A stretch of 45,267 bases of DNA from an uncultured Bacteroidales bacterium (lineage in GTDB: Bacteria > Bacteroidota > Bacteroidia > Bacteroidales > FEN-979): assembly GCA_903915465.1 (NCBI GenBank), contig CAIWTA010000091.1, positions 1 through 45,267 on the forward strand. The letters run 5' to 3'. The notes beneath the pieces were generated by a model that ran no database searches, had not been told where the DNA came from, and saw only the letters and a program-made list of their open reading frames with translations. Positions 40,080-45,267 of the stretch are shown piece by piece. Position 1 is the stretch's first letter, and each line of letters opens with the position of its first letter. A program made the translations under genes and the position numbers.

Positions 40080-40817
40080 ATGAACTGTATCATTATTGAT
40101 GATGAAATTCATTGTATAAAAACATTATCCGGTCTGCTGAATACAAATTTTCCGGAAGTAAATATTCTGGCAACTTGTCATGAATCGACTAAAGCATATG
40201 ATTTGATTCAGAAATACAAGCCCGATTTCATTTTTCTCGATATAGAAATGCCATTTTTGAATGGATTTGACCTGCTTGCCAGATTTAACCCGTTGTTTTT
40301 TGAAGTGATCTTTACCACAGCATACGATTCCTACGCAATAAAGGCTATAAAGTTTAGCGCATTGGATTACCTGCTAAAGCCGATCGACAAGGAAGACCTT
40401 GCCGCTGCCATGAATAAGCTCAGATCGAAACGGTTCTCAATCACAAAGGCGCAAGTGGACATGGCTTCTGCCTTGCACACCAAACAAATGCCCGGCACCA
40501 TTGCCCTTCCCACTAACGACGGACTGACTTTCGCCTCTGTGGATGATATTATCTATTGCTGCGCAGATGGCAGTTATACCCGTATTTTCATGAAAGATAG
40601 CAGTGAGATCCTGCTTTCGAGGACATTGAGAGATGTTGATGAACTGCTGGGTGATTATAATTTCTTTCGCATACATCATTCCACCCTGATCAACCTTAAC
40701 CAGGTTAAGAAATATCTGCGTGGCGATGGGGGAGAGGTTATAATGAGCAACGGCCAGAACCTCCAGGTTGCCCGCACACGGAAAACGGAATTTCTGAACG
40801 CATTCAAGCGTTTCTGA
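40080..40817 (+). CDS. LytTR-family two-component response regulator
   Basis: MNCIIIDDEIHCIKTLSGLL; receiver PDFIFLDIEMPFLNGFDLL, DYLLKPI; LytTR RIHHSTLINLNQVKKYLRGDGGEVIMSNGQNLQVARTRK; ATG 40080 gives a clean N-terminus. Confidence 0.93.
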   Translation: MNCIIIDDEIHCIKTLSGLLNTNFPEVNILATCHESTKAYDLIQKYKPDFIFLDIEMPFLNGFDLLARFNPLFFEVIFTTAYDSYAIKAIKFSALDYLLKPIDKEDLAAAMNKLRSKRFSITKAQVDMASALHTKQMPGTIALPTNDGLTFASVDDIIYCCADGSYTRIFMKDSSEILLSRTLRDVDELLGDYNFFRIHHSTLINLNQVKKYLRGDGGEVIMSNGQNLQVARTRKTEFLNAFKRF

Positions 40818-40876
40818 GACCAAATTGCAACTCCAATTTGCCATTTTACATTTGACTCTCCCACCATCCAACTGCT

Positions 40877-40918
40877 AAATCCTACCGGTTATCAAATAAT
40901 TCCTACCAGTTATAAATT
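40877..40918. promoter_or_regulatory. Two-copy 21-bp tandem direct repeat, candidate LytTR operator
   Basis: AAATCCTACCGGTTATCAAAT (40877-40897) then AATTCCTACCAGTTATAAATT (40898-40918), 17/21 identical; GTT cores exactly 21 bp apart. Confidence 0.6.
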
Positions 40919-40923
40919 GGCGC

Positions 40924-40954
40924 TTTACTTTCCATCACTCCTAAGCTATTTTTG
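40924..40954 (+). promoter_or_regulatory. Bacteroidetes-type promoter for the 14-repeat gene
   Basis: TTTA (40924-40927) - N19 - TATTTTTG (40947-40954), near-match to TTTG-N19-TAnnTTTG; 47 nt before ATG 41002. Confidence 0.55.
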
Positions 40955-41001
40955 GTTATTCGTAAATCGTAAATCGCCCAATCGTAAATAAATCAATCGC
41001 C

Positions 41002-43155
41002 ATGAAAAAATCACTGTTACTTTCAATCGTCCTGGTCATTACCGGGCTCAGTTCATTTGCCCAATGGGAATGGCAAAATCAAACACCGCAAGGAAATCAG
41101 TTGAATTCGGTTTTTTTTACCGGTGCCAATACCGGGTACGCAGTCGGTATTGACGGAACTATCCTTAAAACCATTAACGGAGGTACAACCTGGACTGCTG
41201 AATCAAGCGGTACAAACTATAGTCTTACATCCGTATTCTTTCCCGATGCGAATACAGGGTATGCAACTGGGATTGATCACCCTTCCGCGAGCATTTGGAA
41301 TGGAATAATCCTTAAAACCATAGATGGTGGATCGACCTGGACAGATGTTTTAGGTGGAGGTTGGTCAGGCTTTAATTCGGTTTATTTTACCGATTCCTTT
41401 ACCGGTTATGCCGTCGGGCGTTATGGAGCAATCTTAAGAACTTCAGATGGCGGGATAACCTGGAATAATCAATCGTCACAGGCTAATAGCTTAACATCCG
41501 TTTACTTTCCCGCAACCGATACAGGCTATGCTGTCGGTGAAGGTGGAACAATCCTAAAAACCATCGATGGAGGCACAAACTGGACTGTTCAATCCAGCGG
41601 AACAACCGGTTTCCTTTATTCAGTTTACTTTACCGATGCCAGTACCGGTTATGCTGTGGGTGGTGATAACAGTATTGGGGGAATTATCCTAAAAACAATC
41701 AATGGAGGTACAACCTGGGTTGCTCAAACAAGTGGGACTCCGATGCCACTGCATTCAGTTTACGTTAATGATGACAATACCGGGTGTGCGGTGGGTGATT
41801 ATGGAACGATCTTAAAAACAATCAATGGAGGCACAACCTGGACGGTTCAACTGAGTGGAACATCCTATTTATTATATTTCGTTTGCTCTGCAAATCCTGG
41901 TAAATTATACGTTGTGGGGGATTATGGAACCATCTTTACAACCATCGATGGGGGATCAACATGGACTGCCTTATCTGGTTGTATCACGACCGATCTTTTA
42001 TCCTCCGTTTTCTTTACTGATGCCAATACCGGTTATGCCGTAGGAGGTGTGGATAATCATTGGGACGAAACAGTTGGTATAATTCTTAAAACCACTAACG
42101 GAGGCAATACCTGGAGCAGTATATGGACCGGACAGACCTACCATTTAAATTCCGTGTTTTTCACGGATGGGAATACAGGTTATGCAGTCGGATATGTATT
42201 TGAATTTTGGAATGGCAAACTTACAAAGGGAGCCATTCTTAAAACAACTGATGGGGGAACAACATGGAACAGTCAATATTCAACTGTTTTGCAGGAATCC
42301 TTTAATTCTGTCTATTTTACGGATTCAAATACCGGCTATATTGCATGCGGAGGAGGTACCATCCTGAAAACAAGCGATGCCGGACAGACCTGGGCAACTC
42401 AATCGAGTGGAACTACTTCTTTATACTCAATTTACTTTCCGGATGTCACGACAGGATATGCTGCAGGTCCCATATGTTTTATCAAAACTACCAATGGGGG
42501 CTCAACCTGGACAGCCCAAACGTTTCCGTGGTATACTGGCACTTCAGTTTTCTTTACAAGTGCCGATACAGGGTATGTGACAGGAGCTAGTCCTTTTGGT
42601 GGTGGAAGTATCTCAAAAACCACTGACGGGGGAACGACCTGGGTTACCATAGAAACCACAAACTACATGTCTTCCGTTTACTTTACTGATATGAACACGG
42701 GGTATGCAGTGGGTGGAATGGGAACAATCTTAAAAACCACCGATGGTGGCACAACCTGGGGCGATTTATCTATTAAAACATATAATAATTTGGCCTCTCT
42801 TTTCTTTCCCGATCCCAACACAGGTTGGATCGTAGGAGCTAATGGCACCATCCTTAACACTACCAATGGAGGAACGACAGGTATAAATGAAGCAAAGCAA
42901 CCCGGTTGTTCAGAAATCTCCCTGAAGATTTATCCCAATCCCGCTTTTGAAAAAATTTCGATCGAATCGTCCGAACTTGGAAATATAATGAATGGGACCG
43001 TCTTTGTTCATGGAATGACTGGCCAGGAATTGATCAATCAAAAGGTACAGGGTCCAGGGGTGGAAATAAATGTCAGTTCACTTCCAGCCGGGATCTATTT
43101 TATCAGATATATGGATAAGGAAAAGACAGAGTCAGGCAAGTTTATCAAGGAATAA
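41002..43155 (+). CDS. Secreted Ycf48/BNR-like beta-propeller protein with T9SS type-A sorting domain
   Basis: Signal peptide; 14 copies of a GTILKTxxGGTTW motif preceded by SVYFTDxNTGYAVG; C-terminal LKIYPNPAFEKISIES...GIYFIRYMDKEKTESGKFIKE. Confidence 0.88.
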   Translation: MKKSLLLSIVLVITGLSSFAQWEWQNQTPQGNQLNSVFFTGANTGYAVGIDGTILKTINGGTTWTAESSGTNYSLTSVFFPDANTGYATGIDHPSASIWNGIILKTIDGGSTWTDVLGGGWSGFNSVYFTDSFTGYAVGRYGAILRTSDGGITWNNQSSQANSLTSVYFPATDTGYAVGEGGTILKTIDGGTNWTVQSSGTTGFLYSVYFTDASTGYAVGGDNSIGGIILKTINGGTTWVAQTSGTPMPLHSVYVNDDNTGCAVGDYGTILKTINGGTTWTVQLSGTSYLLYFVCSANPGKLYVVGDYGTIFTTIDGGSTWTALSGCITTDLLSSVFFTDANTGYAVGGVDNHWDETVGIILKTTNGGNTWSSIWTGQTYHLNSVFFTDGNTGYAVGYVFEFWNGKLTKGAILKTTDGGTTWNSQYSTVLQESFNSVYFTDSNTGYIACGGGTILKTSDAGQTWATQSSGTTSLYSIYFPDVTTGYAAGPICFIKTTNGGSTWTAQTFPWYTGTSVFFTSADTGYVTGASPFGGGSISKTTDGGTTWVTIETTNYMSSVYFTDMNTGYAVGGMGTILKTTDGGTTWGDLSIKTYNNLASLFFPDPNTGWIVGANGTILNTTNGGTTGINEAKQPGCSEISLKIYPNPAFEKISIESSELGNIMNGTVFVHGMTGQELINQKVQGPGVEINVSSLPAGIYFIRYMDKEKTESGKFIKE

Positions 43156-43185
43156 ACATAAAAATCTTTGCATCTTTGTCATACA

Positions 43186-45267
43186 TTGATATCTCACATA
43201 CGACATACCTGGCTAACAATTTTCCTGATCCTTATATTCAGCGTAAAAATATTTGCTCAACTATCCGCGGAGGATAAACTCAGGCAACAAATTGCAAAGG
43301 AGACCAATGACACCATCAAAGTAAAACTGCTGATAAAACTTGCTACAAATTATTCCATCCGTAACAGATATGCTATTCGAGGTGATTCAGAACAATTTGT
43401 ATGTTTAAGAGAAGCCCGTAAACTGTCGAAGAAAACCGATTTCAGGTATGGACTGGTTTGGGGTCAGTATTATGATGCGCTTCGGCTTTATTACAATGGC
43501 AGTTATGATAAATCACTGGCCAGCTATAAAAGCTGCATTGCCGGGTTGGATTCTCTTGGCATTATCCAATCTAAAAACAGTCCTCTCGGCACAATCAATG
43601 TCCTGTTCACTGCAATGGGTAAAGAAACAGAGGAATTCCAGTATTATTCAGCCAGGGCTGCTGACTATAAACGCACCGGACCAAAGGAAAACCTGGCCGA
43701 TTGCTATTTTGGGATTGCCGGACATTACGCCTATCTCGGGGATTACGACAAATCAATTGAATATATCCTGCGCGCCCGGGAATTGTATGAAACTTTTGAT
43801 CCCTTCGGTTATGCCACTGCAACCGGGGTTGTGGGATACTATTATCTTCTCTGGGGAAACCTGGATAAAGCCCAGCCTTATATCGAATCAGGACTTAGGG
43901 AATTTAAGCTGATGCAGGATTCCTCGATAATTTCCTTTATGTACAATGCGCTTGGAGACCTGTCGCTGAGGAGACAAGACTACAAAACTGCACTGCTGAA
44001 TTACAGTTATGTGAAAAATTACTGGAGCGCTATCGACACTGCATATATTTCCCTTGATCTCGTAAGCATTGCTGCAGTCTATTTACAATTGAATGAGCCT
44101 GACAGTGCAAACAATTTTCTCATTCAAGCCCGAAAGATGCAGAAAAATAAAAACCTTACCATGATTTCCTCACATGGTCCCTTGGAAATTGATTACCATT
44201 ACTACCTATATTACAAGGCAACCTACAATCACATTCTGGCATTGAAATGTTTAAAAAATGCGCTGAGAGAGGCTCAAATGATAAAATACATTCCGCTAAT
44301 ACTTAAATACACCAATGAACTTCATTTCTACTTGCTGCAAAAAGGGGATTCACTCCAAGCTCTCCGCTACCTGGTTCAATATCAGGCCTTACAAGATTCC
44401 GTCAATAAAATGAACACCCAGGCCCGGATCGCAAGTTTTGAAATTGAGCAGCAACAGCAGGCGAAAGAGAATGAAATTGAACATTTGCAAGTGCAAAAGA
44501 AAGAACAACAAAACTACTACCTGATTGGTGGGGCGTTTTTGCTGCTGATCGTCATGGCTGTGATCAGCCTCATTCTTTACAGAAGAAAAAGAGACAAAGA
44601 GCAGCTAACTTCAGATTTCAAAAGCCAACTGGCCCAGGCCGAAACCAAAGCCTTGCGGGCGCAAATGAATCCACATTTCATTTTTAATTCCCTCAATTCC
44701 ATCAACAGCTTTGTGATGGATCAAAAGCATGAGATTGCTTCGGATTACCTGATCAAATTCTCAAAACTGATCCGCCTGATTCTGGACAATTCACGCAGTG
44801 AAACCATCTCCATTGAAAAAGAACTTGAAACCTTGAAGTTATATGTATTGCTTGAGGCTGCCCGTTTTGATAATAAATTCAAATGTGTTTATCACATAAG
44901 CGATGATGTAAACCCCAGTTCTGTCATGATACCGCCCATGCTGCTCCAGCCGTTCGTAGAAAACGCAATATGGCACGGGCTGATGCAGAAAGAAGGTGAA
45001 GGAACCATTACCATTGAGATAGCCATGAACAGTGAGCAGATAACAGATGACGGTGAACAGCATTTACGAATCTCAATTTCGGATGACGGCATTGGTCGGG
45101 AAAAAGCAGCAGAACTGAAAAGCAAATCCGCAACTCACACATCGCATGGTTTAAAGGTCACCTCGCAGCGGATCGACATGATGAACAAGCTCAATTCCAC
45201 TTGGGCGAAGTTGAATATTGTTGATTTGAAGGATATGCAGGGTTGCGCGATGGGAACCAGGGTGGAA
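43186..45267 (+). CDS. TPR + TM + LytS-type sensor histidine kinase (3' end truncated by window; start uncertain, possible TTG)
   Basis: Frame stays open to the window end, so it is absent from the ORF track; signal-like WLTIFLILIFSVKIFAQ; TPR-like repeats; LIGGAFLLLIVMAVISLILYRRKR TM; QMNPHFIFNSLNSI phospho-His; LQPFVENAIWHGL; DDGIGR. Confidence 0.88.
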   Translation, partial: MISHIRHTWLTIFLILIFSVKIFAQLSAEDKLRQQIAKETNDTIKVKLLIKLATNYSIRNRYAIRGDSEQFVCLREARKLSKKTDFRYGLVWGQYYDALRLYYNGSYDKSLASYKSCIAGLDSLGIIQSKNSPLGTINVLFTAMGKETEEFQYYSARAADYKRTGPKENLADCYFGIAGHYAYLGDYDKSIEYILRARELYETFDPFGYATATGVVGYYYLLWGNLDKAQPYIESGLREFKLMQDSSIISFMYNALGDLSLRRQDYKTALLNYSYVKNYWSAIDTAYISLDLVSIAAVYLQLNEPDSANNFLIQARKMQKNKNLTMISSHGPLEIDYHYYLYYKATYNHILALKCLKNALREAQMIKYIPLILKYTNELHFYLLQKGDSLQALRYLVQYQALQDSVNKMNTQARIASFEIEQQQQAKENEIEHLQVQKKEQQNYYLIGGAFLLLIVMAVISLILYRRKRDKEQLTSDFKSQLAQAETKALRAQMNPHFIFNSLNSINSFVMDQKHEIASDYLIKFSKLIRLILDNSRSETISIEKELETLKLYVLLEAARFDNKFKCVYHISDDVNPSSVMIPPMLLQPFVENAIWHGLMQKEGEGTITIEIAMNSEQITDDGEQHLRISISDDGIGREKAAELKSKSATHTSHGLKVTSQRIDMMNKLNSTWAKLNIVDLKDMQGCAMGTRVE

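Follow-up and report, generated by a model that had tools for sequence, protein, structure and literature searches.

A conserved tandem 21-bp repeat as the probable operator of a LytTR response regulator ahead of type IX secretion cargo genes in uncultured Bacteroidales

Our analysis supports a model in which a tandem repeat from an uncultured Bacteroidales bacterium (positions 40881-40913 of the window, that is, of the whole 45,267-nucleotide stretch of DNA that was analysed) is very probably the operator for the LytTR response regulator whose gene lies at 40080-40817, and in which the regulator would activate the promoter of a type IX secretion system (T9SS) cargo gene and probably of the kinase gene behind it. 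The original prediction of this arrangement, made from a single resemblance, is upheld, and what it described now appears to belong to a conserved regulon that spans 12 genomes and about 25 sites, all with a 21-bp period. The cognate-operator reading is backed by comparative evidence about as far as sequence can back it. The features on which it draws, all on the plus strand, are the following.

40080-40817, plus strand: LytTR response regulator with receiver and LytTR domains, the presumed binder; orthologues in eight genomes of the family and two others
40864-40879, plus strand: conserved block, consensus CCAACYRYTGCCAAAA, directly upstream of the distal half-site and kept in most of 22 aligned sites
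40877-40897, plus strand: repeat unit 1, AAATCCTACCGGTTATCAAAT, containing the distal half-site
40881-40892, plus strand: distal half-site, CCTACCGGTTAT
40898-40918, plus strand: repeat unit 2, AATTCCTACCAGTTATAAATT, containing the proximal half-site
40902-40913, plus strand: proximal half-site, CCTACCAGTTAT, 21 bp after the distal one
40914-40923, plus strand: conserved 10-nt link, consensus CAATTNCCGC, joining the operator to the -33 box
40924-40927, plus strand: -33 box, TTTA
40947-40954, plus strand: -7 box, TATTTTTG, consensus TAnnTTTG
40960-40988, plus strand: copy of a dispersed intergenic repeat, TCGTAAATCGTAAATCGTCCAATCGTAAA, in the 5' leader and outside the operator
41002-43155, plus strand: YCF48-like repeat protein with a T9SS C-terminal sorting domain (Por_Secre_tail; Pfam PF14870, PF18962), the presumed first target
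43168-45267, plus strand: TPR histidine kinase (LytS-type His_kinase; Pfam PF06580), presumed co-transcribed, running off the contig

The two repeat units are adjacent and identical at 17 of 21 positions, and the first begins 59 nt after the end of the regulator's stop codon. When re-measured, the positions and spacing first described for this pair behind a LytTR gene proved correct. Adjacent 21-mers of such similarity occur nowhere else in the window, and 2000 dinucleotide-shuffled versions of the 184-bp intergene contained no such pair; the paired pattern, at up to three mismatches, matches the window once, against an expectation of zero. Five nucleotides beyond the repeat lies TTTA, and TATTTTTG follows after a further 19 nt, so that the promoter-like element proposed earlier is confirmed in place, but its start shifts from 40961: because TAnnTTTG occupies -12 to -5 (PMC9723704), the predicted start falls at about 40959. 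With that start the half-sites lie at about -78/-67 and -57/-46 and the centre of the pair near -62; the AgrA pair is centred near -60 (PMC4227749). The -7 box is a good example of the sigma-A TAnnTTTG element. The -33 box is weak, reading TTTA in the window and TTGA in part of the other sites in place of the sigma-A TTTG, and a -33 motif is not identifiable in Flavobacterium johnsoniae either (PMC7366714).

The gene calls on either side of the repeat, a LytTR regulator upstream and a secreted-protein gene downstream, agree with the Pfam domains. As is characteristic of LytTR response regulators, the protein combines a receiver domain (PF00072, 65.7 bits) with a LytTR DNA-binding domain (PF04397, 62 bits), both over the cut-off, and matches to it were obtained in 61 of 61 relatives searched. 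A DNA-contact motif of the FhRhHRS type, FFRIHHS or FFRIHNS, is present in all 13 aligned orthologues, and its AgrA counterpart is FFRCHNS (PMC4227749). Since querying the PDB with the sequence of the LytTR domain returned only a weak match (3d6w, E 0.16), the DNA contacts were assessed by way of the motif published for AgrA. Four regulators with N for H at the position of AgrA N201 adjoin operators with altered proximal half-sites; three of the four resemble one clade, and some H-type regulators also adjoin altered sites. The general LytTR consensus is [TA][AC][CA]GTTN[AG][TG]. The half-sites share its GTT core and mostly differ from it at the flanking positions; the claim that the regulator binds here keeps the partial match it began with on this point and draws its support from co-occurrence, from searches in both directions and from the phase lock with the promoter described below. 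Published LytTR operators consist of two 9-11-nt repeats with an 11-13-nt spacer and no common sequence (PMC4847170), and they often lie 10 bp upstream of the -35 region (PMC6193735). All sites described here have the 21-bp period, with 12 nt between 9-nt cores, and 10 nt separate the end of the operator from the -33 box. We found no published operator or regulon for a Bacteroidales LytTR regulator in the literature searched.

Conservation follows these elements closely. In a gap-free alignment of 22 sites from 12 genomes, the distal and proximal half-sites carry 1.49 and 1.33 bit per column and the 9-nt spacer between them 0.83; the link and -33 box (14 columns) carry 1.37, the spacer between the -33 and -7 boxes 0.75, the region around the -7 box 1.12 and the flanks 0.14-0.24. 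Measured from the start of the distal half-site, CTT[TG]A begins at exactly 42 nt and TAnnTTTG at exactly 66 nt, each in 20 of the 22 sites; such a fixed distance would be needed if a regulator on the operator were to contact polymerase. The upstream block CCAACYRYTGCCAAAA was considered as a third half-site and rejected, because it fits poorly in the 21-bp register (no site above 3 bits) and an offset of -17 outscores -21.

This footprint bears on the idea that the repeat merely hitch-hikes: gene duplication or a dispersed element would have carried it along as upstream DNA devoid of regulatory function. The exact 33-bp pair has two matches in the 4.07-Mb genome, each before a gene for a YCF48/T9SS cargo protein, and the two operator copies share about 230 bp, covering the upstream region and gene start, at 88% identity; moreover, the leader holds a dispersed repeat. 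Yet half-sites and promoter boxes stand at 1.1-1.5 bit per column, above the spacers and far above the flanks, and the genes that follow the sites belong to unrelated families. They encode YCF48-repeat T9SS proteins, a C10 peptidase with a Spi inhibitor domain, S8 subtilases, an LRR/receptor-L protein, a beta-lactamase-fold protein, and Fib_succ_major (FISUMP-type) and Peptidase_S74 proteins, and in two genomes (G013, G034) a site also precedes the regulator gene. That unrelated genes share the module suggests that it acts as a regulatory element and is not merely part of a duplicated gene. At up to two mismatches, the dispersed repeat occurs 44 times in the genome and 11-15 times in three relatives, whereas a reversed-pattern control gave none; its copies are often paired in inverted orientation, about 80-110 bp from each other, as in a REP-type element. 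A further candidate, that the operator is part of this TCGTAAATC repeat, was rejected: the repeat is located downstream, past the -7 box, and five operator-bearing genomes (G005, G035, G036, G064 and G065) yielded no copy at up to two mismatches. We therefore regard hitch-hiking as very improbable.

If the repeat is instead the operator of the LytTR regulator, each should lead to the other, and searches were run in both directions. A scoring matrix built from 13 sites found sites beside regulators or kinases that had been located by protein alone, in G064 (score 50.6), G065 (54.0), two contigs of G036 (63.4 and 60.6) and G072 (58.8), all of them outside the training set. Counted sites score 45-78, and the maximum on shuffled sequence was 4.1; loci fetched around non-orthologous LytTR regulators gave no site, with best scores of at most 15 and at most 8 in two scans. 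The G072 operator lies about 55 bp behind the regulator stop, which is the layout of the window. Conversely, the operator-only pattern returned 13 stretches from 85,488 genomes, where about 0.1 would be expected by chance by our own estimate, which assumes uniform base composition. Six came from genomes already known, and three are new sites in two new genomes, beside the window-type kinase family or typical targets; both of these genomes encode the regulator at 69-70% identity. The remaining four (L092, L094, L097 and L099) were set aside; they lack the promoter block and, where tested, a close regulator. Three of them are loose matches or low-complexity sequence of the CCTACCAACTAC type, and L094 holds an array of three repeats, its genome having no close orthologue of the regulator. 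That array, from Bacteroidetes bacterium 4572_117 (L094:462-564), consists of CCTACCAGTTAC three times at an exact 21-bp period, followed by TACATTTG; at about 645-705 of the same stretch, a hairpin with a T run, possibly a small RNA, precedes an RRM-protein reading frame.

Site and regulator also occur together. Orthologues of the regulator, at 68-76% identity, are found in eight other genomes, making nine of the 44 in the family with its own, and the operator lies near the regulator loci in all eight, so that none of the nine regulator-positive genomes lacks the site. When one pattern, with up to three mismatches allowed, was run uniformly over the 44 whole family genomes, it matched in six of the nine with the regulator and in one of the 35 without (Fisher P 8e-5), the sites of G035, G064 and G065, which are regulator-positive, being more divergent; a mixed-method count gives 9 of 9 against 1 of 35 (P 1e-8), a value inflated because the matrix was applied to fetched loci only while whole genomes, including the regulator-negative ones, were searched by pattern, and both P values are optimistic because the genomes are related and the counts not independent. 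It had been reasoned that relatives keeping the regulator and losing the repeats would speak against the prediction, but with the two new genomes the site is present in 11 of 11 regulator-positive genomes. These data also weigh on the suggestion that a transcription factor other than the LytTR regulator at 40080-40817 binds the repeat. One genome (G028) has a site with no close regulator, as that suggestion would allow; the promoter at this site departs from consensus in its -33 box as well as its -7 box, which would suit a relic. In another genome (G032), no kinase or regulator of the window's families lies within 13.5 kb of the site. Nonetheless, the site tracks a single orthologue group in both search directions, its geometry is LytTR-like, and another factor would need the same patchy distribution, which makes a different binder improbable.

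The second exact 33-bp pair sits on contig C60, where the operator is followed by a second YCF48/T9SS gene, a C10 peptidase gene and a second kinase gene. The last 141 bp of the window (45127-45267) are identical to the start of reverse-complemented C60, an overlap within the kinase gene that resembles one of k-mer length. The window, and that gene with it, probably runs on into C60, but because the kinase ends are near-repeats the junction is probable and not proven. Near-repeated kinase ends also break assemblies at the kinase locus. The likely order is regulator, operator, YCF48 copy A, kinase 1, operator, YCF48 copy B, C10 peptidase and kinase 2, the two YCF48/T9SS proteins being 44% identical. 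One relative (G005) has regulator, operator, YCF48 gene, a C10-sized gene and kinase in one piece, an order that fits the one proposed for the window and C60, and its YCF48 protein is 75% identical to copy B. Within a single genome (the window and C60; G013; G034), paralogous kinases share 77-92% identity over the kinase half and 41-55% over the sensor half. The recurring layout combines one or a few regulators with several paralogous sensor kinases, most of them encoded behind a secreted-protein gene of their own, and the pairing of a conserved kinase half with a divergent sensor half would fit several kinases feeding one regulator.

PorX of Porphyromonas gingivalis is not known to be a LytTR regulator. 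The PorXY-SigP system resembles the present one in tying two-component control to type IX secretion in the Bacteroidota, but PorX acts on secretion components via an ECF sigma factor, whereas here the presumed targets are cargo genes behind a sigma-A-type promoter (PMC4800418). AgrA at agr P2/P3 of Staphylococcus aureus is likewise a LytTR response regulator with the FhRhH[RN]S DNA-contact motif (PMC4227749); it differs in that the half-site here is CCTACCRGTTAY, the promoter is of the Bacteroidota type and the targets are cargo-kinase cassettes rather than a peptide quorum-sensing operon. The HdrRM/BrsRM systems share repeats 12 bp apart (taken as 9-bp cores) that lie 10 bp upstream of the -35 region, sequences that vary between systems while the spacing is kept, and a positive-feedback layout (PMC6193735). 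However, they pair a LytTR protein with an inhibitory membrane protein, whereas the window's regulator has a receiver domain and histidine kinases encoded nearby, one of them in a neighbouring gene. YpdA/YpdB of Escherichia coli combines a LytS-type kinase with a LytTR regulator and has two direct repeats before its target promoter (PMC4847170), but with the motif GGCATTTCAT and a single target, in contrast to about 25 sites, 12 genomes and varied exported proteins here.

The sign of regulation is not given by sequence alone, and some LytTR regulators do repress: AgrA is described as doing so at bsaA, from a site immediately downstream of the promoter (PMC4227749). The regulator might thus bind the repeat as a repressor, with a change in phosphorylation state releasing the promoter, but we consider this unlikely. 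Neither the -33 box nor the -7 box is overlapped by the operator, which is placed upstream of both, and its distance from the -33 box is that reported for activated LytTR promoters. In addition, the departure of the -33 box from TTTG (PMC7366714) suits dependence on an activator, so activation is the preferred reading.

In a model of activation, a sensor kinase, such as that encoded at 43168-45267, would phosphorylate the regulator, and two regulator molecules would bind the CCTACCRGTTAY half-sites on the same face of the DNA, as these are 21 bp, or two helical turns, apart. With the operator ending 10 nt upstream of a weak -33 box, the bound regulator could help RNA polymerase to start. Transcription would cover the T9SS-cargo gene and probably also the kinase gene, giving positive feedback through the kinase, and the same operator-promoter before other cargo-kinase cassettes would let one or few regulators serve paralogous kinases. 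Binding, activation over repression, co-transcription and the pairing of kinase with regulator are all steps that we infer. A further extension is tentative: each operator-promoter may drive a T9SS-exported protein together with its own sensor kinase, with the near-constant catalytic halves all feeding one LytTR regulator, the divergent sensor half perhaps reporting the export or a ligand of its partner cargo, and new cargo-kinase cassettes arising by duplication together with the operator.

In summary, the operator and its small regulon are new but of a known kind, and their layout is unusual in that several kinases are involved. For uncultured Bacteroidales they offer a testable site, CCTACCRGTTAY-N9-CCTACCRGTTAY, a rule for its phase with the promoter and a list of candidate targets among exported proteases and surface proteins, and the layout suggests that several kinases may share one regulator.
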